Positions 4,554 to 57,647 of a DNA stretch of 57,647 bases are shown here, in pieces. The notes beneath the pieces are model-generated. The model was not told where the DNA came from. It did no database searches and worked only from the letters and a program-made list of their open reading frames with translations. The stretch comes from a virus: IMG/VR virus record IMGVR_UViG_3300021081_000002, positions 1-57,647 of that record. The stretch is one strand, 5' to 3'. The translations under genes and the position numbers were made by a program. Within the stretch, counting starts at the first letter, position 1; each line of letters begins with the position of its first letter.

Positions 4554-5390
4554 CTATCGGTTCTTTCGGAATCGCTTCCACCACACGTGCCCGTGCTGAG
4601 ACTCGTCCACTAGCCTTCGCATCTTTTCGAGATCACCGGTTGCCCGGTTGTAGCGAATAGCGAGGTTGTCATTAGTTCGGGGGTGATGCTGTCCCTTCCA
4701 TTTCCGAGTCACCCAAGTATCGCCATGCTTCGGGTGCCACATATGGAGGACGTCGTTCTTGGAAGTCTTATGCTTCCCATATAGAGTATCGAGCGCTCGG
4801 ACGAAGGCGATGTCTTCACCACCCCAGCCACGGAAGCGCTTATCCATACCACCGACGAGTTCGAATGCCTCCCGGGGCATAATCTGGATTAACGCACCGA
4901 ACCGGTGGCCGAAGGCAGAGCCTTGGATCGACTCGACGTCCAAGTCACTCGGCGGGGACGGGAATCTCAGCGGGTCGGTGGGAGAACTCTGAAGTACTCT
5001 CTCAGTCGCTTCAGCTGTCAATCGGAACACACGGCGGTAGGGAACGAACCACAACGGATATCCCTTTCGCCGAGCGCGGTTGATACGCGCGGCGGCATCT
5101 CTGATTACCTGACCGGGAATATAGGTGTCCGCGTCGAGTATCACAAAGATGTTGCCACGTGCGCGTGAGGCAGCGTCGTTCACCGCGCAAGTCTTCGAAA
5201 AGGGGGTGCCGTTGTCATCCCCCATGACGATCTCGGCCTCGGGGAGTTCGCTAGCCCAGTAATGCTCTAGCCACTTCCAAATACGTTTCCGGTGAGCGTT
5301 ATCTGGCCGGAAGGGCACGAGGAGGGAAATTTTAGGATCGGGCGGTCTGTGATGGGGATGGCGTCGGTGGCGCCACCAGCTACTTACCAC
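4554..5390 (-). CDS. GT2-like glycosyltransferase (DXD type)
   Basis: About 278 residues from a GTG at 5390. The open frame extends to 5537, but that part lies inside the upstream gene and is Cys/Trp-rich, unlike a real N-terminus. Features of a GT-A transferase: ISLLVPFRPDN at the nucleotide-binding strand, ILDADTY (DXD metal/nucleotide-sugar site), and GWGGEDIAFVRALD, matching the C-terminal acceptor-site motif of galactosyltransferase-like enzymes. It is last in the sugar cassette, directly upstream of the tail-fibre genes. Donor and acceptor sugars are unknown. Confidence 0.7.
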   Translation of the reverse strand: MVSSWWRHRRHPHHRPPDPKISLLVPFRPDNAHRKRIWKWLEHYWASELPEAEIVMGDDNGTPFSKTCAVNDAASRARGNIFVILDADTYIPGQVIRDAAARINRARRKGYPLWFVPYRRVFRLTAEATERVLQSSPTDPLRFPSPPSDLDVESIQGSAFGHRFGALIQIMPREAFELVGGMDKRFRGWGGEDIAFVRALDTLYGKHKTSKNDVLHMWHPKHGDTWVTRKWKGQHHPRTNDNLAIRYNRATGDLEKMRRLVDESQHGHVWWKRFRKNR

Positions 5391-6096
5391 TCTGCACCAT
5401 CTGACCAACCAACTCGAACATGTCGTATAACTCGTGCTGCATATCTTCGATCCAGTATCGCGGAGCTTGCTGAGTTTTGCCGAGCACCAGTTCCATGCCA
5501 AGCGAAGCAGAGTAGTCACGGAATTTAAACAACCCACCTTCCTTGTCTAGAGTCGTCGAATACTCGATTCGCCGGGGGATAGCGAAGGAGTCTGCCACGA
5601 TAATGCCGTGTAGTGAACTAGAGACAATTTTCTGGCACCGTCCGATCTCGGCAATAACCTCTAACGGGTCGCCTTCGGGACGGATAATGCGAGGGTTGTA
5701 TTTCGTGAACTGAGTTTCGAGGTGGTGATCGCTCCAGTGGGGAACGATACCGAGGTCGTATTCTTTCTTCACCGAAACGAGTTCATCACTAAGGAGTCCG
5801 GGGTCACCGATAACGATGTCTCGCCGACCACCCGAGGATAACGGACCCCTGGCTCCCAGGACTGTGGCATTGAAAGTCCGAGGGATGACGTCGGTGTTCT
5901 CGAATAGCATCCCAGAGCCAGCGACGATCCCGGTGTAGTGGGGAGTAACCGCTTCAAGGATAGAGCCGACACAGAGGATGTCAGCGTTTACCACTGGCGC
6001 CCATTCGACTTCTATCCCTGCAAATCGACTGAGAAGTAGTGGGGTGAGTTGGTCGCCGAAGTTCTTTTTGCCCTTCCACCAAAACGCAGTTGTCAT
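5380..6096 (-). CDS. Polysaccharide pyruvyl transferase family protein
   Basis: A 238-residue protein. The start FWWKGKKNFGDQLTPLLL and the late motif SSLHGIIVADSFAIP are signatures of the family that adds ketal-linked pyruvate from phosphoenolpyruvate to sugars of cell-wall or exopolysaccharides. GSGMLFENTD and GARGPLSS fit the family core. The SD AAAGGA precedes the ATG by 6-7 bases. Its end overlaps the next glycosyltransferase start. Such enzymes are rare in phages. It could charge a virion or host-surface glycan; the acceptor is unknown. Confidence 0.75.
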   Translation of the reverse strand: MTTAFWWKGKKNFGDQLTPLLLSRFAGIEVEWAPVVNADILCVGSILEAVTPHYTGIVAGSGMLFENTDVIPRTFNATVLGARGPLSSGGRRDIVIGDPGLLSDELVSVKKEYDLGIVPHWSDHHLETQFTKYNPRIIRPEGDPLEVIAEIGRCQKIVSSSLHGIIVADSFAIPRRIEYSTTLDKEGGLFKFRDYSASLGMELVLGKTQQAPRYWIEDMQHELYDMFELVGQMVQSGK

Positions 6097-6100
6097 CTCT

Positions 6101-7012
6101 CTAATCCTTTCGGAGAGCCAGCTTTATACCATCTTCGACGGAGATCTCAGGCGTGTAGTGTTCGAGCATCCTCGTTGGGTTGCCGACGCGGTAGCGGACA
6201 CCAGTAGGTTTACAGATGTCGTATGTCACCTGTGGCCGAGCCACCGGAGCGGTGTTGTGATGTGGCAACCCGAGGAAGCCACGGTCGAATGCGAGATCCC
6301 ATGCGGTCTTAGCTAGTGCCCCCATCTCTGTTCCAACGCCGGTGCAGAGATTGACAGGTCGACGGTCATCATCTCGATATACAGCATAAGCTGCTCGTAC
6401 GACATCGTCGATATGAATCCAATCTCTAGTTTGACCGGGTGGTCCCCACACCGTGAGATCGTTATTTCGGGCACGCCGAATGATGCTTGGAAACGGGTAA
6501 TCAAGAGATTGGTCTGCACCATATCCACTAAACGGCCGGACCACGTGTACTCGTAGGCCGAGTTCGTTTGCGGCCTTAGCGAGTCTTTCTCCGGTGACTT
6601 TGGCCCATCCGTAGTTGGCGTCGGGGTTGGCGACATCGAGAGAGAGATCTCTTTCTTCGAGATTCTTGTGGCAATACTGTCCCTGAAAGTGCGTAGGATA
6701 GACGGCAGAGCTAGAGAAATACAAAATAGCACGCTGCTGAGTCCGAACAGCCCAATTGAAAAGCTCGGCATCCAAGATGAGGTTGTCTGCAAGGTTTAGG
6801 TTCGTCCCATCGATTGTCGCTCTTCCACCGACCTTATAGGCGCAGTGGACGGCGAGGTCGTAGACCTCATCAGCAAAATGGAAATATTCGACAGCAGACA
6901 AGCCGTCGTAGGCTATATCGACGCATCTGACCTCGTAATCGAGGTCAACGAGGTAATCGACCATATGCCGGCCAACGAAGCCGTTGCTACCGGTTACGAG
7001 TGCAGTTTTCAT
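6101..7012 (-). CDS. NAD-dependent sugar epimerase/dehydratase (extended SDR)
   Basis: A 303-residue protein starting MKTALVTGSNGFVG, the Rossmann TGxxGxxG dinucleotide-binding motif. A catalytic Ser region (YFSSSAVYP) and YGWAK (YxxxK) follow, then RDWIHIDDVVRA, typical of nucleotide-sugar epimerases and dehydratases. I chose the ATG at 7012 because it overlaps the preceding stop as ATGA; two further in-frame ATGs lie at 7018 and 7024. It probably makes the activated sugar used by the neighbouring transferases. The exact reaction cannot be told from the sequence. Confidence 0.8.
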   Translation of the reverse strand: MKTALVTGSNGFVGRHMVDYLVDLDYEVRCVDIAYDGLSAVEYFHFADEVYDLAVHCAYKVGGRATIDGTNLNLADNLILDAELFNWAVRTQQRAILYFSSSAVYPTHFQGQYCHKNLEERDLSLDVANPDANYGWAKVTGERLAKAANELGLRVHVVRPFSGYGADQSLDYPFPSIIRRARNNDLTVWGPPGQTRDWIHIDDVVRAAYAVYRDDDRRPVNLCTGVGTEMGALAKTAWDLAFDRGFLGLPHHNTAPVARPQVTYDICKPTGVRYRVGNPTRMLEHYTPEISVEDGIKLALRKD

Positions 7013-7557
7013 TGACATCCCCATATTTGGAAACAGTAGCCCGGGTCGAAGTAGGTCTCGCGGTAATGCGTGGGATTCCAGCCTGTGTCAACTAACATCG
7101 CCTTAACAGCCTCTTGATCCCAACTCCAGTAATGCTCGGGGTTGTCGTCCCGCCACCGACAGATTGGAGTGCTGACGATCAGCTTCTTCGACTTCTGACG
7201 TATCTGTCGTAGCACCGATTCTGGGTCGTCGAGATGTTCGAGGGTTTCGCAGCAAAAGAAGACGTCTACCTCTGGGATCTCCTTTATCGTCTCTTCGATC
7301 GGTCCGCAGTAGGCGTAGCCTGGAGCGTAATCCCCGAGGTACCGTTTCTGGAATGGCAGGCGATTGATGGTGAAAGCGTTACCGCAGGAGAGGTCAGCTC
7401 CGGTGTGGTCAGTGTCGTCCATCAGCTCTGCGGCTAGGTCCAGAGTCGAGCACACACGAAGGACATGATCTGGCCACTGAGTGTGGTCGTGGGGGACGGC
7501 GTAGATCTCTCTTAGCTCTTCGTCTGTATACTTCTCCCGGCAACGGTTGCGGTACAT
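7009..7557 (-). CDS. Class I SAM-dependent methyltransferase
   Basis: A 182-residue protein with GADLSCGNAFTINRL as the SAM-binding glycine-poor loop, DVFFCCETLEHLDDPESVL as the motif after strand 4, and KKLIVSTPICRW as strand 5, as in small sugar or metabolite methyltransferases. The SD GAGG lies 5 bases before the ATG. It overlaps both neighbours within the sugar cassette, so methylation of a cassette sugar is the likely role (inference). Confidence 0.7.
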   Translation of the reverse strand: MYRNRCREKYTDEELREIYAVPHDHTQWPDHVLRVCSTLDLAAELMDDTDHTGADLSCGNAFTINRLPFQKRYLGDYAPGYAYCGPIEETIKEIPEVDVFFCCETLEHLDDPESVLRQIRQKSKKLIVSTPICRWRDDNPEHYWSWDQEAVKAMLVDTGWNPTHYRETYFDPGYCFQIWGCQ

Positions 7558-8312
7558 CCGTACCTCGCTTCAAAGACGTCGGGATTAGCTAAAAGTTCCT
7601 TATCGGTGGGCCAGCCACCGTCAGCCCAGTCGAAGTTGCTACGGTTGCCGTGTTCGGGGAACCGCATCTTCCCGTTGGCGTAATACCCAGCTCCGCAAAA
7701 TGACCGCGTCGGCCGAGCTACCCGAAGAGGCCGCCGCTGAGACATCCGCTCGTACATCCAATTGCATCCGATGTGAGCCATAATCTTCCTTCGGCATATC
7801 GGCCAGACCTGGAATAGCAGTGCTAGCTGGTCGGTCTGGTAGTAGTCACCGGTTATGGTATCGGACAACCCACCGAGTTCGTAATAATTACTCCGCTGAA
7901 TGCCCCATAGCCCCGCAAGAAGTTGCCGACCATGATAGGGGTGGTCTCGGATGACGTGATAGGGCAACTCTGATTGTTGTGACCACTCACGGACAGCTGC
8001 GATTTCCCTGGAACAAAGCCTGGAATCGACATCCCTAAAGAGGATGAAGTCGTGATCAGAATGCTTCACCGCACGGAATCTCCACCACGTCGCGGTCTGA
8101 TCTTCTGGTTCGTCGACAAATTCGAAGTCGGCATGAGGGTTGCTGTTCCGGATACGAGTGACTACTGAATCTGGCACAGATCGACCGCAGTAATACCACA
8201 AGTCCCAGTCTGGATGAGATTTGCGGTAGTCGGCGGCATTTGTTATCGCACCACCGTAGTAGATGTCGTCCTCATCCAAACCAAACAAGCTAAAAGCAAC
8301 TAGCCCCCGCAC
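7512..8312 (-). CDS. Glycosyltransferase-like protein (DXD)
   Basis: A 266-residue protein. DHDFILFRDVDSRLCSREI carries a DXD-type metal site in the place expected for GT-A enzymes, and WDLWYYCGRSVPD resembles the N-terminal strands of GT32-like or capsular-sugar transferases. YYQTDQLALLFQVWP fits the acceptor side. It starts GTG with the strong SD GGGAGGTGA, just after the inserted HNH gene. Specificity is unknown. Confidence 0.6.
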   Translation of the reverse strand: MRGLVAFSLFGLDEDDIYYGGAITNAADYRKSHPDWDLWYYCGRSVPDSVVTRIRNSNPHADFEFVDEPEDQTATWWRFRAVKHSDHDFILFRDVDSRLCSREIAAVREWSQQSELPYHVIRDHPYHGRQLLAGLWGIQRSNYYELGGLSDTITGDYYQTDQLALLFQVWPICRRKIMAHIGCNWMYERMSQRRPLRVARPTRSFCGAGYYANGKMRFPEHGNRSNFDWADGGWPTDKELLANPDVFEARYGCTATVAGRSIQTKS

Positions 8313-8315
8313 ATC

Positions 8316-8711
8316 TCACCTCCCATAGGTTCGGATTCGATGACAGTTAGCACAGACTACGTCGCACTTGTCTATCTCCTCTTGAACCAACCTAAGCGAA
8401 CGATGGGTGCCGGTGGCGATATTAAACTTTTTCTCTTTTGGATTACGGTGATCGAAGTCCATTACGCATGGCGGATATTTATTGCCGCAGTCCATACACG
8501 GAACGTCTTTGACGGAATTGGTGAGGCAGTAGAAAGCTTCAATACGTTCTTTCTTACCAGCGGCTCCCCAATTAGGGTTCTCTCGTCGCTTGACGTTTTC
8601 GCAATTCCTGCAATAAGACTTCAGGCCGTCGTAGCGTTTGGAGTTTTTATTGAACTCAGCCCGAGACTTTTCAGTGCTGCATCCCGGACAACGCTTTAAG
8701 CCGCGCGACAT
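8316..8711 (-). CDS. HNH-type homing endonuclease
   Basis: A 131-residue protein starting MSRGLKRCPGC. It has an N-terminal CxxC pair plus CRNC, then MDCGNKYP, the DFDHRN motif and a late CANCHR, as in zinc-stabilised HNH nucleases. The longer frame (to 8774) is only read-through of the upstream gene. It overlaps the upstream glycosyltransferase by 41 bases, in line with mobile insertion between two sugar genes. Expected to cut a specific DNA site and spread by homing. Confidence 0.7.
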   Translation of the reverse strand: MSRGLKRCPGCSTEKSRAEFNKNSKRYDGLKSYCRNCENVKRRENPNWGAAGKKERIEAFYCLTNSVKDVPCMDCGNKYPPCVMDFDHRNPKEKKFNIATGTHRSLRLVQEEIDKCDVVCANCHRIRTYGR

Positions 8712-9372
8712 CTCCACCAAACTCCCCACTGTCGTTATAGCGCGCGTACTCGGCGATGTCGGCGTTGGCCACAAGGTGGCTGTTCACTTCCTTGTAGTTG
8801 ACGTCATCCTTCCCCTTACCGGCGAGAGGGTGCATATGCTCGACTACCGTCTCCGGGAGATAGGTCAGGCGGTTGAGCGCCATACCCCAGTCTTTCCAGA
8901 CGACGTCAACACAAAGATGCTGGAAGCCAGGTGGGACCATATACCCGAGTGCTCGGGGGATGTTGGTAGTCATCGCTACCTGAGTGGGTATGGCCTCATA
9001 CTGGAAGAGATCGTTTCCGTATACGAACCCCGTTCCCAGTGTCTCCAATGCCTCAAGGTAGTCGTTGTCCCATCCTCGTGTACGAGCACGGTGATCGTCA
9101 CCCATGAAGCCAACTGCAAATCCCAGCCGAGGTGCGAGTGCTGTATAAGCTTGATTAAGTGCGTCGCACATTCCTCTTCGACCGCCCGGGACAGCAACGA
9201 CTCTCCCATATCCTGTAAGGAGCTTGTAGTATGTTGGTAGATACGGGTCGCTGTCGTCACAGACAATCACCAGTTCTGTCGATGCCGTCGTCGTATCTCT
9301 GAAATTGTCGTAGAGTTCTACAGCGCTCTTCGGCCTGCCTTTGGAAGGTACCAGTATGGTCAGCGCGCTCAT
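8671..9372 (-). CDS. GT2-like glycosyltransferase
   Basis: A 233-residue protein beginning MSALTILVPSKGRPKSAVEL, the classic first strand of GT-A/GT2 enzymes. LVIVCDDSDP follows, and GFMGDDHRART at the position of the metal-binding acidic motif. A GGAG SD precedes the ATG. The start lies 116 bases inside the upstream transferase gene, an unusually long overlap in another frame. Late HMHPLAGKGKDDVN is typical of phage glycan transferases. Target sugar unknown. Confidence 0.65.
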   Translation of the reverse strand: MSALTILVPSKGRPKSAVELYDNFRDTTTASTELVIVCDDSDPYLPTYYKLLTGYGRVVAVPGGRRGMCDALNQAYTALAPRLGFAVGFMGDDHRARTRGWDNDYLEALETLGTGFVYGNDLFQYEAIPTQVAMTTNIPRALGYMVPPGFQHLCVDVVWKDWGMALNRLTYLPETVVEHMHPLAGKGKDDVNYKEVNSHLVANADIAEYARYNDSGEFGGDVARLKALSGMQH

Positions 9373-10048
9373 TGATCAGCTCCAGGGTAGCTTCGCGGTT
9401 AAGGTAGGCGGCGTTGTAACGGTGGAGGATTTCGACATCTTCCGGCTCCCAGTCGAGGGTTAGTTTGCCGGTAGGGTCCGCACGGTCGTGATAGAGGCAC
9501 ATCAGCACCCCGGGATGAAACACCGGTTGACCGACTAGCGTATGAGCGGCGTTAATCATCGCTCTGTCCTCACAACCCCAACCCCTCAGCCTTGAGTCTT
9601 GTCCACCTGCAAGCCACCATACGTCAGGTCGACAAACCCAAATTCCTCCCTGAGAAGGTCCTGCTCGGCAGATTGCTCGGTTTCGGAGCTGAGAAAGATT
9701 TGATCCTCCGGCGATATTGTGGATCGCTTTCGGCGACATCTCCCACACCTCATTGAAAGGGAAATGGAGAAGGTAGTCTTCAGACTGAATAGCATCTCTC
9801 AACGCCCTTTCCTCTGGGATGGAGTCAGCGTCGCAGAGGACCACCTTCTCAGCTCCGTAGCTCTCAGCCATCAACACTCCGAGATTTCTCGTCGCAGAGC
9901 GGTTAAAACGGACATAAGATCTGTCATCGGCAACTAAGACGTGATCGAACGGATACATCTCAGAGACGCGGTCCCGAGTGATCTTGAACGGCTCTTCCCG
10001 CGAGCCTGAGTCATCATTCCGGTACAGGAACACGAGAGCAGTCCGCAC
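9257..10048 (-). CDS. Galactosyltransferase-like GT-A protein
   Basis: A 263-residue protein: VLVADDRSYVRFNRSATRN, then VVLCDADSIPEE (DXD), then LRGWGCEDRAMINAAH, the acceptor motif also seen in the transferase at 4554-5390. The GTG start at 10048 follows AAGGAG at 5 bases. It is the first gene of the leftward cassette, so its promoter should lie in 10049-10187. The last 38 codons overlap the next gene. Confidence 0.65.
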   Translation of the reverse strand: MRTALVFLYRNDDSGSREEPFKITRDRVSEMYPFDHVLVADDRSYVRFNRSATRNLGVLMAESYGAEKVVLCDADSIPEERALRDAIQSEDYLLHFPFNEVWEMSPKAIHNIAGGSNLSQLRNRAICRAGPSQGGIWVCRPDVWWLAGGQDSRLRGWGCEDRAMINAAHTLVGQPVFHPGVLMCLYHDRADPTGKLTLDWEPEDVEILHRYNAAYLNREATLELINERADHTGTFQRQAEERCRTLRQFQRYDDGIDRTGDCL

Positions 10049-12813: not shown

Positions 12814-12875
12814 AGATATGTCCCTTCGGGGCTCTGTCTGCGTCTTGGCGGCGATTTCGGACAAAATGGGGCAAA

Positions 12876-12904
12876 ATTATGGCATCAAGTGCCACATCGA
12901 CCAA
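12876..12904 (-). promoter_or_regulatory. Candidate sigma-70-type promoter for the lysin
   Basis: On the minus strand TTGGTC (12904-12899) and CATAAT (12881-12876) are spaced 17 bases apart, about 60 bases ahead of the lysin start. The -10 matches consensus at 5 of 6 positions; the -35 is weak. Predicted only. Confidence 0.35.
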
Positions 12905-13019
12905 TCTACAGGTAGTACAAACTGTTAGAGGCGAAGACGAATAGTGCAGCGACGTTTATCGATGGGGGTACCCCCCCTACCCCACCACCACTAGACACCA
13001 GACACACACCACAGTGGTG

Positions 13020-13129
13020 GGTACCGGTACCTGGGTACCGGTACCTGTAAGGGATCCCTTATGTGACTCCAGTACCGGTACCTCTAAGGGATCCCTTAGG
13101 GTCCCATATGGAGGGTAGGTACCGGTACC
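13020..13129. repeat. Four copies of palindrome GGTACCGGTACC
   Basis: Copies at 13020-13031, 13034-13045, 13071-13082 (first base A) and 13118-13129. The 12-base unit is itself two GGTACC palindromes. They are interleaved with the TAAGGGATCC-type repeats. Possible protein-binding sites. Confidence 0.85.
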
Positions 13130-13337
13130 CTACTAAGGGATCCGTTAAGGGATTCCTTAAGGGATCCGTTATAAGGATTGTTATTATGGGTCCTATATCA
13201 TGGGGTAGTAAGGGATCCGTTAATAGGCACCATATGGGTCCCATCGACATCGATATGCGAGGCGACACATATGAGCGATGTGAGAGGTATGTATTATATT
13301 TATTAACAGATCCCTTATTAATATAACAGATCCCTTA
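13048..13337. repeat. Eight-copy palindromic repeat family TAAGGGATCCSTTA
   Basis: Perfect palindrome TAAGGGATCCCTTA at 13048-13061 and 13085-13098. TAAGGGATCCGTTA at 13134-13147, 13158-13171 and 13209-13222. TAAGGGATTCCTTA at 13146-13159. Reverse-oriented TAACAGATCCCTTA at 13304-13317 and 13324-13337. Several share end bases head to tail. The layout resembles origin iterons or a clustered operator. Confidence 0.85.
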
Positions 13338-13600
13338 TGTATATGTATAGTATACATACCACTACTATATATATATTATACATATATATAATACATATAT
13401 ATATTATATACATATATATACTATATGTATATATATATACTATATGTGTATGTATATACTACTACTATATATATACTATACATATATATACTACATACAT
13501 ATATGTACCATATACATATACCATATACTAATAGCGTATGTATGTGTGGTATGTATGGTATGTATATACATATACCATATGTGTATAGTGTATATGCACA
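13285..13600. repeat. Alternating A/T tract
   Basis: About 300 bases of TATATA, CATATA and GTATAC-type repeats with very few G or C, giving Tyr/Ile-rich meaningless frames on both strands. It directly follows the iteron-like repeats, as a DNA-unwinding element would. Confidence 0.75.
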
Positions 13601-13674
13601 TAGCATATGCACATAGCACTAAGAGATATAGCATATGCACATAGCATATGCATGTGCACCATCACGGTAGCGTG

Positions 13675-13815
13675 ATAGGGGTATATAGCACATGCACACC
13701 CTGCACCTGCGACAGCACGTGCACCCCACGCCACATGGCAGGTACGTGCACCCCACACCACAGCACGAGGTGTGCTCCACGCCACACCCACACCACACCC
13801 CGTCCTCGCCACACC
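13675..13815. repeat. CAC-rich low-complexity segment
   Basis: Dense CACACC, GCACCCC and CCACAC repeats with strong C-over-G bias on the plus strand. The composition changes abruptly from the A/T tract and from the sequence to the right. Confidence 0.7.
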
Positions 13816-13988
13816 CTGATTTGCATTCAAGCTAGGTGTATGCTAAGCTTGAGAGGTAGGGCAAGGAAGACAGAGTTGACAACTGAAGAGGCTAGGTAGA
13901 GGTACTCAGTGAGGTAGTTCACAAACTGATACCCCGGTTGCAGGTCTAGACCCCCTGGAAGTACAGAGGGAATTATCTGAGAGCCACA

Positions 13989-14237
13989 GTGTTATACCTA
14001 GTAGAGAGCAAAATAGCAAAGGGACACACCGATCGGGTTGAACGAAGATCCAATTGGATGCGAGAGATCCGGTTCGTGACCAAGAGTCCTGATGTACCGA
14101 ATAGAGACAGCGTCCAGCTAATGATGCCAGAGGGTTGCCACCCCGAGCGCGTCATGTGGGTATCGCTTCACAGCGATCAGTACTTTATCTCGTTCCGGCC
14201 CACTACTGGTACACACCAATTAGAGAGTTGTGTGTAG
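13989..14237 (+). CDS. Doubtful 82-residue reading frame
   Basis: A GTG-started frame in the gene-poor region with no clear SD. The second half (DSVQLMMPEGCHPERVMWV, then SLHSDQYFISFRP) reads like protein, but nothing was recognised. It may be a decayed gene. Kept only as a low-confidence candidate. Confidence 0.2.
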   Translation: MLYLVESKIAKGHTDRVERRSNWMREIRFVTKSPDVPNRDSVQLMMPEGCHPERVMWVSLHSDQYFISFRPTTGTHQLESCV

Positions 14238-14359
14238 GGTGCGAGGTCATACGCTGTCCAGTGTACGTTGTACGGTTTGAGGGGTCTGTGAAGGTAGTTA
14301 GCCACAGTGCAACAACACGACAACGTACGCGAAACATGAGTCCAGCCACACATGAGCCG

Positions 14360-14931
14360 GTAGTTAGGCGGGATGCCAGACGGCTAGTCAGTAGTTTGAC
14401 GGGATGTCAGAGGCTAGCGGGACTCAAGGCAGTACGTCCCCTACCATCCAGGGGTTACAGGGATGATGAAGACGTGAGTATGGGTGCGTTCCTTGGCGCT
14501 AGCAAGACGGTTGCCAAGTGGCCTAGTGAGGCTAGGCGACGTACCCAGATCCTCTAAGGAGTTGATCGCTCACGGGCCGGGTACTACGAGGGAGAGTGCC
14601 AACGACCGCACTTAGCACGGATTGAGGAGCCGGTGCTATCTGGGGGGAGGTTGATAGGTGACGTTAACGGACCTATCAGACTGTACCAGGGTAGCAACCT
14701 TGTCCGGAAACGTGGAGAGTGCAAGATCAGCTTCATAGACTGATCATGACACAACAGAGAGACTTAACACATACTTAGCACTTAGCTTCACACTTCGCAC
14801 TACATCGCACATAGAGCACTGGACCCAAACACGGGCGGCAACACTGCTTAGAGGATACGTCGTACGACCACAGACGGGCATTTAGGTAGGCAGTCCTAAT
14901 AGAGGGTAGGTAGTTAGGCAGGATGCCAGAC
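14360..14931 (+). repeat. Three dispersed copies of a 21-22-base repeat
   Basis: GTAGTTAGGCGGGATGCCAG (plus AC) at 14360-14381 and GTAGTTAGGCAGGATGCCAG (plus AC) at 14910-14931 differ at one base of 22. A diverged copy, GTAGTTTGACGGGATGTCAG, lies at 14391. No gene accounts for them. Confidence 0.7.
14658..14738 (+). CDS. Possible 26-residue leader peptide
   Basis: GTG start 7 bases after GGGGGGAGG, an SD as strong as those of the real genes, followed by 26 codons and TAG. The peptide (MTLTDLSDCTRVATLSGN then VESARSAS) matches nothing known. The good SD is the only support. Confidence 0.25.
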   Translation: MTLTDLSDCTRVATLSGNVESARSAS

Positions 14932-15026
14932 TGGTGTGTCAGGTCATGAGCGGGATGCTCGCGACACACACGATGTGCTCACACATACAATCACAACTAG
15001 AAGATAGATCAAGAGAAGGTGAGGTA

Positions 15027-15161
15027 ATGAATAGCATCTGTGGCTACCTGCTAGAACACGCAGAGGCCACAACCGAATTCAAGCTTGAGTGGGTTACCAC
15101 CCCGCTTAGGACCGCCATGGGAGTAATGCATCTAGTCCAGCAAAGTGGTATCCTCGGCTAG
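15027..15161 (+). CDS. Small hypothetical protein (44 residues)
   Basis: ATG at 15027 behind AAGGTGAGG. Starts MNSICGYLLEHAEATTEF and ends LVQQSGILG. First gene of the rightward early block, ending 37 bases before the GGDEF gene. No family recognised; the length and strong SD suggest a real small early gene. Confidence 0.5.
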   Translation: MNSICGYLLEHAEATTEFKLEWVTTPLRTAMGVMHLVQQSGILG

Positions 15162-15198
15162 ATGTACTACTGAGAGGGAGAGGGGGAGGTGTTGCAAG

Positions 15199-15849
15199 AT
15201 GTATACGCTGTTAGTCGTTGGAATCGGGATCGTGGGCGCTCTCCTAGGGTGGATCCTCGGCTATAGAAAGGCAAGCCGACGATCAGAAGATATAGAGAGG
15301 GCTGCCCACCTTGACAAACTAACTGGGCTGTTTGATAGGGCCATCGTCGAAAACGCTATTGATGATGCCACGAAGAGTGGCGTCAACCTCACAATTGGGG
15401 TATGTGACGTCAACGGCCTACATGACATCAACGAGTCCTTGGGGCACGCTGCGGGCGATCAACTGCTCTTAGCCGTGTCTCATCGCTTACTCGACCTTCT
15501 CCCCGAGGGAGAGGGATTGGTGGCAAGAACGGGGGGAGATGAGTTCTGGATTGCAACCTCTCAGTCACCTCAAAGCCTAGTAGATGCGTATACCTCTGAC
15601 ATCGACGGCTTGGCTCACAGGGCCAGTGTCGGAGTTGCATCATCCCCACAAAACGGGTCGCCGAGACACGCTGTCCTCTGTGCAGATCTCGCGATGTACT
15701 CAGCAAAGAGTAGCCACACACCTGCGATGATCTATAACCAGAGCACTATGGGTACGCCTGAAGAGCAGAATGAAGGACTACCGGAGGAGATCAAGTACGA
15801 GCATCGCCATCACGAGCGCCGACAAAAAGAGAGAAGGAAAAGGGCGTGA
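15199..15849 (+). CDS. Membrane-anchored GGDEF protein, putative diguanylate cyclase
   Basis: A 216-residue protein. Residues about 2-22 (YTLLVVGIGIVGALLGWILG) form a membrane anchor. Then LDKLTGLFDRAIVENAI (GGDEF entry motif), GVCDVNGLHDINESLGHAAGD and an intact RTGGDEFWIA follow. These are the signature sites for cyclic-di-GMP synthesis from two GTP. The usual DxDxFK is DVNGLH here, and no RxxD inhibitory site lies ahead of GGDEF. A basic tail ends the protein. ATG at 15199 chosen for its SD (GGGGGAGG). Confidence 0.8.
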   Translation: MYTLLVVGIGIVGALLGWILGYRKASRRSEDIERAAHLDKLTGLFDRAIVENAIDDATKSGVNLTIGVCDVNGLHDINESLGHAAGDQLLLAVSHRLLDLLPEGEGLVARTGGDEFWIATSQSPQSLVDAYTSDIDGLAHRASVGVASSPQNGSPRHAVLCADLAMYSAKSSHTPAMIYNQSTMGTPEEQNEGLPEEIKYEHRHHERRQKERRKRA

Positions 15850-15907
15850 CTACTACACTAGGGATGATCTTGATGCTGGGAATCATATACCCGTTCTTGG
15901 TGTTGTA
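15845..15907 (+). CDS. Possible 20-residue hydrophobic peptide
   Basis: GTG overlaps the GGDEF stop as GTGA, and GAAGGA lies 8-9 bases upstream. Product MTTTLGMILMLGIIYPFLVL is one short hydrophobic helix. It resembles the other tiny membrane peptides of this genome in size, but it could be chance. Confidence 0.3.
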
Positions 15908-15913
15908 GCGGAT

Positions 15914-16150
15914 ATGGATCCCAACATCACACTCCTACGCATCCGTGAGTTGAGCCATAGGCTTAACAGGACCTACGACGAACTCACCGAGCTAGCTGAG
16001 CTAGTGGAAGAGCTTGATCACTGGATGACCAGAGGTGGCTTCCTTCCGAAAGCATGGGAGCACAAGCCACGAACCAGAGAGTGGTGGGACAAGGTAGCTA
16101 CAGGAGAAGAAGTGGCTACCCCCCGCTACGAGAGGGAGGGGTCACCATGA
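15914..16150 (+). CDS. Hypothetical helical protein (78 residues)
   Basis: From ATG 15914: a coiled-coil-like N-terminal half (LLRIRELSHRLNRTYDEL, then TELAELVEELDHWM) and a basic end with EWWDKVATGEE. It overlaps the next gene by 4 bases (ATGA). The frame extends back into the GGDEF gene but lacks an SD there. Function unknown. Confidence 0.45.
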   Translation: MDPNITLLRIRELSHRLNRTYDELTELAELVEELDHWMTRGGFLPKAWEHKPRTREWWDKVATGEEVATPRYEREGSP

Positions 16151-16407
16151 ACGACCTAGCCAACGAGCCATTTGGACCAGACGACGAGTCGCTGCCAGAC
16201 GACGAGCGAGGGGCTGTAGCCCTAAGTCTAGTCCGAGTGTTGACAGAAGCGCTGCTTGACCGTAATCTGACTCAAGACCTCGATGACCAGCACCACATCA
16301 TCAACTACATCGAGCCGTATACCGTCCCACCATTCTCACTTGAGATGAGCATCGCGCTCCAAGCGAATCAGCCTGGCCAGAGTGTTGGCCTCAAGGAGGG
16401 TAACTGA
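16147..16407 (+). CDS. Hypothetical acidic protein (86 residues)
   Basis: ATG at 16147 with SD GGGAGGGG, overlapping the previous stop. Acidic N-terminus (GPDDESLPDDERG), then a helical segment ALSLVRVLTEALLDRNLTQD. Part of the compact early operon ahead of the DUF932 gene. No family recognised. Confidence 0.55.
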   Translation: MNDLANEPFGPDDESLPDDERGAVALSLVRVLTEALLDRNLTQDLDDQHHIINYIEPYTVPPFSLEMSIALQANQPGQSVGLKEGN

Positions 16408-16408
16408 G

Positions 16409-17401
16409 ATGACCAAGGAAACTCAGCAGTGGCTAGAGTCCAACATCCGCGTCGGCTTCACGAAGCAGAGAGGGAATGCGTGGTGGTATGAGGGAGACAC
16501 TCAGAGCCACTACACCGGCGAAGTCCCCGAGGAGGAGGTCAAGCGGCTACTTGGCTTCCCAGTCGTCGAGAGCCCTGTGTACGTCAACGTCGAGCCGGAT
16601 AGCACGGGGAAGCTCGTAGTCCCTGACAAGAAGGCCATCATCCGAGGAGACACAGGGGAGGTCTTCAACATCACCGCGAGCGGCTACCAAGTACACCCAC
16701 TGACTGAGTGGCTGTATGACAGCGTCTACCAGATGCTAGACGGCGGGGTAGGGGTCGGCAGTGTTGGACTCCTGAATGGTGGCAGGGTCGCCTTCGTTCA
16801 GATGGAGCTGCCAGAGAACCAGCGGGGCCCTAACGGCGAAGACTTCCGACCGTTCGTAGCGGCTACGACCTCACTGGACTCCTCACTGGCAACTGAGTAC
16901 CAGCGGGGGACGACTCGGATCGTCTGCGACAACACCCGTAGTGCGTTCTTCGCCCATGGTGGTGGGCTGAAGAAGCGGCACACCAAGAACTCAAGTGTGA
17001 AGCCTCAAGAACTGCGGGACCACCTCGGGATCGCACTTGAACAGATCTCCGAGGACTACATCGCAGAGATCGAGGCGCTGACCTCGAAGGACGTCAGTGA
17101 GCGACAGTGGGCCGCGTTCCTCAACGAGTACGCGCCTATCCCCGAGAACCCCGGTAGGGGCCAGACGATGGCCAGGAACAAGCAGGACGCCCTCATGGGG
17201 TTGTGGGAGTCCGATGACCGAGTACCAGCGGGGACGGAGTGGGGAGTGCTGCAAGCCGTCAACACCTACAACCAGCACGTCCGAACCGTGAAGGAGGTCG
17301 ACAGGGTAGAGCGGAACTACATGAACCTCCTAGAGGGCAAGACCGCGAAGGAGGACAGGACGACACTGGAAGTGTTGGATCGGGTACTGTCGCGGGCGTG
17401 A
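16409..17401 (+). CDS. DUF932-like phage/plasmid protein
   Basis: A 330-residue protein. AIIRGDTGEVFNITASGYQV, VGSVGLLNGGRVAFVQMELP and TTSLDSSLATEYQRGTTRIV, then CDNTRSAFF, are the conserved blocks of DUF932, a family common on phages and plasmids and often next to replication genes. Biochemical role unknown. ATG 16409 follows AAGGAGGG at 8 bases. A terminator hairpin follows the gene. Confidence 0.75.
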   Translation: MTKETQQWLESNIRVGFTKQRGNAWWYEGDTQSHYTGEVPEEEVKRLLGFPVVESPVYVNVEPDSTGKLVVPDKKAIIRGDTGEVFNITASGYQVHPLTEWLYDSVYQMLDGGVGVGSVGLLNGGRVAFVQMELPENQRGPNGEDFRPFVAATTSLDSSLATEYQRGTTRIVCDNTRSAFFAHGGGLKKRHTKNSSVKPQELRDHLGIALEQISEDYIAEIEALTSKDVSERQWAAFLNEYAPIPENPGRGQTMARNKQDALMGLWESDDRVPAGTEWGVLQAVNTYNQHVRTVKEVDRVERNYMNLLEGKTAKEDRTTLEVLDRVLSRA

Positions 17402-17417
17402 TACCGTGAGTTAACCG

Positions 17418-17450
17418 TGGGGGCGTCGGGAAACCGGCGCTCCCACTCTC
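17418..17450 (+). terminator. Hairpin terminator after the DUF932 gene
   Basis: TGGGGGCG (17418-17425) pairs with CGCTCCCA (17438-17445) with one G-U pair, and an inner CGG/CCG pairs around GAAA. CTCTCTATTT follows. Separates the first early operon from the polymerase operon. Confidence 0.6.
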
Positions 17451-23354: not shown

Positions 23355-23789
23355 TCACCACAACGACCCTCCGGGCCACACCACACGACCGATGCAGTGG
23401 TCGTCGAGCAACTGGGTGCAGTCGGTGCACGGTGCTCGCGTGATGTACGCGGTGGTGTGCTCGGAGTGGTCCATCCACGCTCCGAGCGGGTAGCGGTCAG
23501 TGAACCGTTCCATCAGGTTGAACTCAGCGTGATACGCGATGCAGTTGGCGTAGGTCCCACCAGCAGCGAGTTGGTCATACGTCAACAAACCCCTCGGACA
23601 GGCACCTTCGAGACACCCTGGGACACCAGGGTCAGTTCCGTTGTAGGACGTAGCGAGGATGTGATGACTGCGGTTGTCCATCAGCACAGCACCGACGAGG
23701 CTACGACGGCAGTCACCTCGGGTGCCTGCTGCGGTTGCGAGGATGAGACCGTACGAGTCCCAGTCCGGTCGTCCTTCGAGGGTGTGCAT
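23355..23789 (-). CDS. Cytidine/deoxycytidylate deaminase family protein
   Basis: A 144-residue protein. Zinc-site motifs HAEFN (HxE) and APCTDC (PCxxC) are both present, with GDCRRSLVGAVLMDNRSHHI as the core strands. dCMP deaminases give dUMP, the ThyX substrate, which fits the phage thymidylate synthase at 36521. ATG 23789 chosen for AGAGG at 5 bases; the longer frame has no support. Substrate (dCMP or other) is inferred. Confidence 0.75.
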   Translation of the reverse strand: MHTLEGRPDWDSYGLILATAAGTRGDCRRSLVGAVLMDNRSHHILATSYNGTDPGVPGCLEGACPRGLLTYDQLAAGGTYANCIAYHAEFNLMERFTDRYPLGAWMDHSEHTTAYITRAPCTDCTQLLDDHCIGRVVWPGGSLW

Positions 23790-24107
23790 GTCGCCTCTGT
23801 CTGATTCGCAAAACAACGCATTATAATAAGGAAGCGCGCCCCCGGCGCGCAACAAGATCCGGGGGAGCCGTTTCCTAGGGAAGCCTCTCGGCTTCTTCCC
23901 TGAGGTATCCGTTAGCTTCACTGAGTGAGGTAGTCCCTGAGTCGAACAGGGTCAACCTTCCAAAGTCCTCACCTAGTGCCCGTTGGTAGGCTTCCACTGC
24001 TACCAATCAGCGTACCGTAAGAGTTTCCCCCTCGGCTTAAGTATTAGGTGTCCAGGTGAGAATATACGGCATAGCCGGCGAAACTATGACATCTGAGAGG
24101 TGATACG
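23790..24107. ncRNA. Structured intergenic region, possible RNA element
   Basis: No gene in 318 bases. Contains GCGCGCC-CCC-GGCGCGC (23834-23850), a G+C hairpin near 23876-23902, a T-arm-like hairpin CCCTG-AGTCGAA-CAGGG (23935-23951) enclosed by GTGAGG/CCTCAC (23925-23930/23967-23972), and TTGGTAG/CTACCAA (23983-23989/24000-24006). A minus-strand TATAAT (23820-23825) could serve the deaminase gene. Dispersed element B follows at 24026. Confidence 0.35.
24026..24094 (+). repeat. Dispersed intergenic element, copy B
   Basis: Second copy of the element at 10717-10783, here just upstream of the gene starting at 24108. Between the conserved blocks it has an extra GC-rich palindrome-like GCATAGCCGGC. 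It could be a promoter, a repressor-type site or a small structured RNA. Confidence 0.6.
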
Positions 24108-36417: not shown

Positions 36418-36579
36418 GTGAGGGAGGCTCTTACTGAGCCGTATCGGGGGAGGGTGGGGACGTACGGTCCGGACGCTGCTAGACTGTTGGTGGAGCTGTA
36501 CGACGCAGTAGGGAGAGAGTATGAAGGTGTGGCTGATCGGGTACACGAAGATAGACTTCTTCGACCAGCCGGGGCTTGA
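36418..36579 (+). CDS. Hypothetical small protein (53 residues)
   Basis: GTG 36418, 9 bases after GAGGCG; fills the gap before thyX and overlaps its first 59 bases. (M)REALTEPYRGRVGTYGPDAA, then RLLVELYDAVGREYEGVADR. Probably a helical small protein; the overlap leaves some doubt. Confidence 0.35.
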   Translation: MREALTEPYRGRVGTYGPDAARLLVELYDAVGREYEGVADRVHEDRLLRPAGA

Positions 36580-37210
36580 GGAGGAGGTGGCCCCGTGGTA
36601 TCCGGGCTACGACGACGACGCCGACACTCTAGCTGAGTTCGCCGGCCGTGCCTGCTACCAGTCGTGGGACCGTCCGAACCCTGCTACGGCTAACAACAAG
36701 GATTACCTCAAACACATCCTCGAAGTGAACCACCAATCCGTCCTAGAGCATAACTCCTACACATTCTATTGTGTGGGAGTTAGCCGTACCTTGACCCACG
36801 AACTGATCCGGCACCGCCACCTCTCCTTCTCGGAGCTGTCTCAGAGATACGTCGATCTTGCAGGGTATGACACCATCTGCCCCCCTGATATCGTCGGTAA
36901 GGACACCCCCGGGTTGACTAGAACCTGTTCGTGGGCGGTGGTTTCTGCCCACAACGCTTATGATATGGTCATGGCCACCCTCCTCGGTGAGGGGAAGAAG
37001 CGGAAGGAAGCGCGGCAGGCAGCGCGGGCCTTCCTGCCGGCGGGGATGGAGACTAAGATCGTCGTCTCGGGGAATGCTCGGGCGTGGCGGCACGTTATCG
37101 AGATGCGGGAGTCGCCTCAAGCTGACGCCGAGATCCAGGAGTTCGCACGAGAGATACACCGGAAGCTACTAAACCACTCACCGAATCTGTTCCAACAACT
37201 AGGAGAATGA
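36521..37210 (+). CDS. thyX: FAD-dependent thymidylate synthase
   Basis: A 229-residue enzyme making dTMP from dUMP with methylene-THF, NADPH and FAD. The ThyX motif RHRHLSFSELSQRY (RHRxxSxxxxSxR) is intact, and LEVNHQSVLEHNSYTFYCVG and PAGMETKIVVSGNARAWRHV are the conserved flavin and substrate blocks. SD GGGAGAG. With the deaminase at 23355 it can raise dTTP supply during phage replication. Confidence 0.9.
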   Translation: MKVWLIGYTKIDFFDQPGLEEEVAPWYPGYDDDADTLAEFAGRACYQSWDRPNPATANNKDYLKHILEVNHQSVLEHNSYTFYCVGVSRTLTHELIRHRHLSFSELSQRYVDLAGYDTICPPDIVGKDTPGLTRTCSWAVVSAHNAYDMVMATLLGEGKKRKEARQAARAFLPAGMETKIVVSGNARAWRHVIEMRESPQADAEIQEFAREIHRKLLNHSPNLFQQLGE

Positions 37211-50041: not shown

Positions 50042-51022
50042 TCACCCCGACTCTATAAGATGAAGGAAGTCTGGAATCTGGTCTTGGGTCTGCTTCCACA
50101 GACGGTCAGAAGCGTCGATAGCGTTAGTAGTGTGCCAGTCGTAGTTGTTGAGGAGAGTCGTCAGCGCCGACTCCCACGTCCACATATCTTTGGGGTCGAT
50201 ATAGGCGAAGGAGACCCCCGCTTCCAATGGCCCGGGGAGGTCAGTGGAAATGCTTGGGATTCCACTGGCGGCGGCCTCCACCGCCACCCGGCCGAAAGAC
50301 TCCACCGTCGACGGCACCAGCAACACCGAGGTCTGTCTGTAGATCTCCAGCGGGTTCTGGGTGTGGGGCAGGATGGTGACGTTGTCCATCTCTCGGACGT
50401 CTTGGTTGCCGTAGGCTCCGAGGACCCCGAGGAACTGGAGATCCGGAAATCGTGCCGCGAGATGATAGAAGACGTCGTGGCCTTTGTCGTAGAACGGCTC
50501 CGTGCCGTCCGACAAGTTCACTAGTGTGATGTAGCCCTTGTCCACCCTCGGAGGGGTGATCTTGTACAGCGCGGGGTCGACCAGCGGATAGAGCACACAG
50601 TTCGGTTTGTGGGTGCCGTTGGCCTCGACTGCCGCGCGGGTGTTGTAGGAGTTGTAGACGAGTTTGTCACAGTACCGTTCGGCTATATTGAGTGAGAACT
50701 CCGTGTAGTTGTGCACCATCTGGACGGTGGGGATCTTGTGTTGTTGGGCGACGAGGCTCCCACGGGCCGCACACTCAAGCTGGGTTATGATGAGATCGTG
50801 TCCAGGAAAATGGAGGGTCGGATCTCTCTTCGACGAGTACGCGTTGACTGGGATACCATCTACTAGGTACGACGCACTACCATCAACGAAGACGCGGCTA
50901 GCAAGCACCTCGACCTTGTGCCCTTCCCGCTTCAGCAGACGGAGGAGGTCGTGGAGCGACGTCTCTGCCCCAGCATTATGGCCACTGCCGACGTATGTGC
51001 TGTTGTAACCGAGTACCTTCAC
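50042..51022 (-). CDS. GT4-family glycosyltransferase (GT-B fold)
   Basis: A 326-residue protein. GHNAGAETSLHDLLRLLKRE is the N-terminal acceptor loop, NLSDGTEPFYDKGHDVFYHL starts the second Rossmann domain, and VESFGRVAVEAAASGIPSIS is the E-x7-E sugar-nucleotide site of GT4. It sits between the capsid and connector genes, where transferases often act on virion proteins or on the host surface. GTG 51022. Confidence 0.75.
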   Translation of the reverse strand: MKVLGYNSTYVGSGHNAGAETSLHDLLRLLKREGHKVEVLASRVFVDGSASYLVDGIPVNAYSSKRDPTLHFPGHDLIITQLECAARGSLVAQQHKIPTVQMVHNYTEFSLNIAERYCDKLVYNSYNTRAAVEANGTHKPNCVLYPLVDPALYKITPPRVDKGYITLVNLSDGTEPFYDKGHDVFYHLAARFPDLQFLGVLGAYGNQDVREMDNVTILPHTQNPLEIYRQTSVLLVPSTVESFGRVAVEAAASGIPSISTDLPGPLEAGVSFAYIDPKDMWTWESALTTLLNNYDWHTTNAIDASDRLWKQTQDQIPDFLHLIESG

Positions 51023-57176: not shown

Positions 57177-57609
57177 TTCGACTCCAGTGATTGAGGTATT
57201 CTATTGACCTATGGAAGATCTCTATGGATTCACCCGCCCCTGCAATTAGCCAATTGCACTTATTGCAAAGAATTCCACGAATGCATTTTCCACAAGAAAG
57301 GTAGCCTGCGCAACAGTAGTGATCGTGATCAACGTGCATGTTTTTTAGGTTGCTATCGATCTTTCCACATATTGCGCAGCCGCCTTGTGCCTCCAGCATC
57401 TCATTAAACTGGTCGGCCGTCATCCCATAGGTTCGCTTAAGGTATTTGTTCCTAGCCGTGAGGGAGTCGTATGGATTACGCTTCGCGTACTCCCGCATCC
57501 AAGAGTTGAGACAGGATTTACACCTAGACTTTAGTCCGCTACTAACCCGAGAGTTTTTTCCAAAATTCTCTTCTGGAAGTGTCTCGTTGCATCCAGTACA
57601 CAACTTCAT
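57157..57609 (-). CDS. Endonuclease VII-like HNH protein between TerS and TerL
   Basis: A 150-residue protein. MKLCTGCNETLPEENFGKNS, GGCAICGKIDSNLKNMHVDH, and CGKCIRGILCNKCNWLIAGA give zinc pairs and a DHDH core. SD GAAGGA at the TerS end; overlaps TerL by 20 bases. HNH proteins next to terminase can be part of the packaging machine in HK97-like phages, but the same family also acts as homing enzymes, and two relatives here are clearly mobile. Confidence 0.75.
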   Translation of the reverse strand: MKLCTGCNETLPEENFGKNSRVSSGLKSRCKSCLNSWMREYAKRNPYDSLTARNKYLKRTYGMTADQFNEMLEAQGGCAICGKIDSNLKNMHVDHDHYCCAGYLSCGKCIRGILCNKCNWLIAGAGESIEIFHRSIEYLNHWSRNGTDTP

Positions 57610-57647
57610 CGGATTATCCTTCGGCTAGCTTCTTCGCAGTTGCAGCG
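57521..57647. repeat. Terminal direct repeat (circle overlap), copy 2
   Basis: Exact second copy of bases 1-127. Bases 57610-57647 include the last codons of TerS again, and the HNH gene that starts at 57609 is complete only in this copy. Remove one copy when the genome is circularised. Confidence 0.95.

Follow-up and report, generated by a model that had tools for sequence, protein, structure and literature searches.

A predicted membrane-tethered diguanylate cyclase of an actinophage-like siphovirus with histidine in place of a near-invariant lysine

Several phages have annotated GGDEF proteins: Bacillus phages G and SP-15, Pseudomonas phages YuA and MP1412, Bordetella phage CN1 and Acetobacter phage phiAX1. 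GGDEF domains are also encoded by a Mu-like marine virus (PMC7785012) and occur in polyvalent proteins (PMC5512222). Bordetella phage LK3, whose lysogens form more biofilm, encodes a further GGDEF protein, for which the available part of the report gives no gene-level causal test (PMC8471281). Phage GGDEF proteins as such are thus already known, and gp150 of SP-15 (AMM44948.1; 183 aa) even has a single N-terminal membrane helix before its GGDEF-family domain. YuA gp44 and CN1 gp42 (Yuavirus/Vojvodinavirus) are small proteins without such a helix; together with the polyvalent domains they carry an S/AGDEF signature and their own C-terminal DKAEREKSGHRAARG tail, and form a separate supported clade. 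GGDEF-like domains in giant phage proteins of 2200-3200 aa (L044, L050-L052, L055 and L056), several of them S/AGDEF, group with these small proteins. Outside phages, Streptomyces plasmids often encode small proteins that consist of GGDEF alone; S. venezuelae has one on a plasmid, pCdgG (PMC6205966), and 203 Streptomyces plasmid records matched the L053 form.

We analyzed a 216-aa GGDEF protein encoded in the window, which is the whole 57,647-nucleotide stretch of IMG/VR record IMGVR_UViG_3300021081_000002. It resembles SP-15 gp150 in its single N-terminal membrane helix, but gp150, from a Bacillus phage with its gene among glycosyltransferase genes, is about 25% identical, has a GGEEF signature and keeps RxxD and the equivalents of PleD Lys332 and Arg446. 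Phage G gp350 also has a hydrophobic N-terminal part, but this is longer, RxxD and Lys are present, and identity is about 29%. The Streptomyces plasmid proteins are similar in being about 210-230 aa, GGDEF-only, devoid of RxxD, often without Arg446 and borne by actinobacterial mobile elements; they differ in a less hydrophobic N-terminal segment, a retained Lys332 and a clade of their own (support 98/93). The stretch behind the signature is about as short in our protein as in YuA gp44, CN1 gp42 and the polyvalent domains. The earlier note had proposed a search for phage homologues with conserved active sites. Phage GGDEF proteins were indeed found, those of SP-15 and G with the Lys, but none was a close homologue. 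Searched at a weak threshold, 50,697 phage records yielded 141 with a match, and every organism name given for these was a non-actinophage or "Bacteriophage sp."; with no named actinophage among them, the setting in an actinophage would, at this sensitivity, seem to be new. The His substitution and the lack of RxxD in an anchored phage form are likewise new. The three matches from faecal-clone "phage" records that we looked into turned out to be of LacI-GGDEF, multidomain sensor or GGDEF-EAL type; many such records are probably bacterial DNA and were excluded as precedent.

The window holds terminase, portal, capsid and tape-measure genes. Its terminase matched 1,968 phage records, nearly all from phages of actinobacteria, its DnaE-like polymerase was closest to those of Streptomyces phages (42-43%), and all 193 phage records matching its DUF932 protein were actinophages. 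A direct terminal repeat of 127 bp (1-127 and 57521-57647) and a separate contig that runs over the repeat junction at 99.9-100% identity indicate that the genome is complete, at about 57.5 kb, and either has a circularly permuted form or was assembled as a circle. The virus is an actinophage-like siphovirus, whose host we leave unspecified beyond "an actinobacterium"; GC content is about 55%, with no specific pointer to Streptomyces. The terminal repeat, the independent junction contig and phage genes on both sides of the GGDEF gene led us to reject contamination or a chimera as unlikely and bore out the earlier claim that the protein is phage-encoded. Prophage or integrative cargo was set aside, no tyrosine or serine integrase being found in a search that diverged ones could escape, and the phage is probably lytic.

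Matches to GGDEF-type families were obtained for the product (Table 1) in Pfam, NCBIfam and PHROGs. PF00990, of which this is the only copy in the genome, matched with E 3e-20 and 73 bits (curated cut-off, 23.8 bits) over profile positions 1-158 of 161, and a chance match is excluded. As had been read from the letters, there is one hydrophobic stretch, at the N-terminus (hydropathy over 19 residues peaks at 2.28 for residues 3-21 and is at most 0.81 beyond residue 30), an LTGLFDR motif at residues 41-47 and an intact TGGDEF at 111-116. Because RKASRR follows the membrane helix, the catalytic domain should be cytoplasmic by the positive-inside rule.

Table 1 Features of the GGDEF gene, its product and its surroundings (window positions)
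Feature	Position	Strand	Basis or remark
Repeat-rich region of 2.4 kb with few credible genes	12814..15198	.	Between leftward endolysin gene and GGDEF gene
Shine-Dalgarno-like GGAGG	15185..15189	+	9 nt 5' of GGDEF-gene ATG
GGDEF protein gene	15199..15849	+	ATG start, 216 aa, ORF boundaries exact
Transmembrane helix, residues 3-22, with GxxxGxxxG (Gly13-17-21), then RKASRR	15205..15264	+	Hydropathy, motif, model
GGDEF domain PF00990, residues 36-173	15304..15717	+	Pfam, fold
DVNGLH, equivalent to PleD D327-K332; Asp70 kept, Lys332 replaced by His75	15406..15423	+	Alignment, pattern scans
GGDEF signature, residues 112-116	15532..15546	+	Sequence, homologue alignment
Lys170, equivalent to PleD K442, phosphate-binding, kept	15706..15708	+	Alignment
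78-aa protein, probable operon member	15914..16150	+	Read from 15770, the longer frame hits phrog_865 (label: HNH endonuclease)
86-aa hypothetical protein	16147..16407	+	Overlaps 78-aa gene (ATGA)
DUF932 protein, PF06067, phrog_1221	16409..17401	+	Profile matches
Strong terminator-like hairpin, 13 pairs, operon end	17417..17446	+	Consensus scan only

An AlphaFold2 model built from 25 aligned sequences had a mean pLDDT of 89.8. Its helices and strands follow one another as in a full GGDEF domain, the third helix being short, and one continuous helix spans residues 2-36. Compared by Foldseek and VIA-align 2, the model matched PleD, WspR, YfiN and SiaD (Z 18.6-19.4) along with other cyclases (Z 18-19 overall); the suggested structure prediction and comparison with PleD and WspR gave a confident model and Z of about 19. 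The top viral matches were phage G gp350, the best of them (E 3.7e-12), and the SP-15 diguanylate cyclase. The product is real, phage-encoded and very probably a membrane-tethered protein of the GGDEF fold, although a fold shared with active cyclases is no proof of function.

To read the active site we aligned 125 homologous domains, including the window's own (124 non-self), and took residue roles from published work (PMC7288161, PMC12943098). Since the homologues were collected with GHxxGD and RxGGDEF patterns, conservation in the corresponding columns is overstated; the Lys332 column lay outside direct selection. In the alignment, the metal ligands Asp70, Asp114 and Glu115 were kept together with the signature, as were the guanine-binding Asn78 (PleD Asn335) and Asp87 (PleD Asp344), so the loss of metal- or GTP-binding residues raised in the earlier note did not occur at these positions. 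Gly82, His83 and Gly86 were likewise kept.

The earlier description of DVNGLH as a departure from DxDxFK stood for its last residue only. Asn at the third position (24/125 homologues) and Leu for Phe (18/125) are common, and by alignment DVNGL is an ordinary DxDxF variant in which His for Lys is the sole exceptional change: Lys occupied the Lys332 column in 123 of the 124 non-self homologues and Gln in one. Codon 75 is CAT, two base changes away from AAA or AAG, which rules out a single read error as the source of His75. A strict degenerate pattern of 54 bases that specifies the His form, and which matches the window itself, had no match in IMG/VR contigs (the window's own record apparently being omitted from the scan) or in 296 actinobacterial genomes; viral matches to the Lys-form pattern numbered more than 120, and this pattern also matched 3/3 actinobacterial genomes. 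PleD K332 touches phosphate through its main chain (PMC7288161), and by analogy His75 would permit that contact; the residue at this position has also been described as a transition-state stabiliser (PMC12943098). Between these two accounts, the effect of His75 on rate is not predictable.

Two further deviations were found. The equivalent of PleD R446, which binds phosphate, is Thr174, a change that the earlier note had not listed, at a variable position; and the segment from GGDEF to the next conserved strand has 27 residues, the shortest seen, against 31-48 in homologues. Together with His75 at the near-invariant Lys position, they raise the concern of impaired activity. The main rival to an active cyclase is a crippled or dead domain that still binds GTP and partners and that, as a membrane-anchored dominant negative on host diguanylate cyclases or as a GTP-sensing scaffold, lowers or redirects host c-di-GMP. 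We consider this possible, at odds well short of even. Degenerate GGDEF domains are known as receptors or allosteric modules. Here the positions that contact phosphate hold the unique His75 and Thr174, with Asn78 and Asp87 retained; this, and the long branch in the tree described below, would fit such a role. Dead GGDEF domains, however, usually lose their metal ligands and signature; here every metal ligand and the whole signature are kept, and there is no I-site for a c-di-GMP receptor role.

Returning to an active enzyme, we assign a probability of roughly 0.55 to the reading that infection yields a minimal diguanylate cyclase which has no sensor and dimerises constitutively; the protein is probably, not certainly, a working cyclase. 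The N-terminal helix would anchor it in the host membrane, leaving the GGDEF domain on the cytoplasmic side, and a Gly13-Gly17-Gly21 zipper, with the helix continuing into the catalytic domain, may pair two copies with no input signal. Each copy would bind one GTP, through Asp70 and Asp114/Glu115 with metal, Asn78 and Asp87 at the guanine and Lys170 at the phosphate, and the facing pair of GTP-bound domains would form c-di-GMP. As previously noted, RxxD is missing five residues before GGDEF, where EGEG stands; it was present in 70 of 121 homologues. The product would thus lack the usual means of shutting the cyclase down. A rise in c-di-GMP, perhaps one restricted to the membrane, might then alter host physiology or surface in the phage's favour.

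In a 56-row tree the protein formed the longest end branch, and its position among ordinary bacterial cyclases was weakly supported. It was placed outside the Streptomyces plasmid clade (AU p 0.14) and outside the YuA/CN1/polyvalent clade (AU p 0.23), joining being rejected in neither case. The earlier concern that homologues might systematically lose the signature applied to the latter clade (SGDEF, AGDEF), of whose hallmarks (S/AGDEF, DKAEREKSG tail) our protein has neither, having GGDEF and another tail. The plasmid proteins are a plausible, unproven source pool for the phage gene. No close homologue was found by scanning with the protein alone, and no GGDEF match was obtained in the related contigs tested, including a 58-kb contig with a 50% identical polymerase; this contig was the sole tested relative covering the polymerase region, and the closest contigs stop short of the GGDEF region. 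Such absence from relatives and the long branch would suit cargo that plays no part in infection: a gene lately acquired from a bacterium or a mobile element and now decaying. We judge this unlikely, given the intact frame, ribosome site, operon-head position and complete fold; moreover, catalytic residues kept despite such divergence argue that the site is still under selection.

Among convincing genes, the GGDEF gene leads a rightward set that continues with the 78-aa, 86-aa and DUF932 genes to the hairpin. Its operon sits upstream of the replication genes, and this position suggests early expression. Codon usage gave too weak a signal to be informative. The 78-aa protein had no Pfam match. 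No EAL domain was found in the genome, and a paired phosphodiesterase was discounted. Overlapping the GGDEF-gene stop with its GTG, a very hydrophobic 20-residue frame (15846-15908, VTTTLGMILMLGIIYPFLVL) is possibly a coupled membrane micropeptide, or chance.

A role in producing cGAMP or some other guanine-containing compound, or a decoy against host cyclic-nucleotide defence, is very improbable. GGDEF enzymes of changed specificity do exist, as the Hypr enzymes illustrate (PMC9140294), and interference with host nucleotide signalling has been proposed for phage GGDEF domains (PMC5512222). Nevertheless, the base-recognition position Asp87 is the ordinary Asp, and neither the GGDEF protein nor the two neighbours tested matched a defence-system gene family.

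Returning to the cyclase reading, we advance only tentatively the fuller picture of a probably lytic actinophage whose operon-leading, sensorless, feedback-free membrane cyclase, using His for Lys, reprograms its actinobacterial host through c-di-GMP. The earlier suggestions of action via BldD or of holding the host in a growth state are speculative. If active, the protein would offer a direct test of whether phages rewire c-di-GMP in bacteria whose development that signal governs, and would show whether the Lys332 position tolerates His.

The operon promoter presumably lies within the repeat-rich region. No riboswitch or known RNA was found upstream of the GGDEF gene at the Rfam gathering level, and low-threshold matches there were weak and dismissed as AT-repeat noise. 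Folding in 250-nt windows was mostly unremarkable, and the minus strand at 14450-14699 had a somewhat better fold than its shuffled versions (z -4.1 with 60 shuffles, in one of 14 tests). A palindrome cluster at 12967-13220, with five copies of AAGGGATCC[C/G]TTA and four of ACCGGTACC, is a possible origin or repressor-binding region and is followed by an AT-repeat tract to about 13640. Three copies of GGTAGTTAGGCGGGATGCCAGAC lie in an apparently non-coding stretch at 14359-14931. Elsewhere in the genome, sugar-related genes (galactosyltransferase-like, NAD epimerase, methyltransferase-like and family-4 glycosyltransferase) occupy 4554-10048 and 50042-51022, which may be set beside the likewise glycosyltransferase-rich surroundings of the SP-15 GGDEF gene. 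Genes for a ThyX-like thymidylate synthase and a dCMP deaminase were seen at 36521-37210 and 23355-23921.
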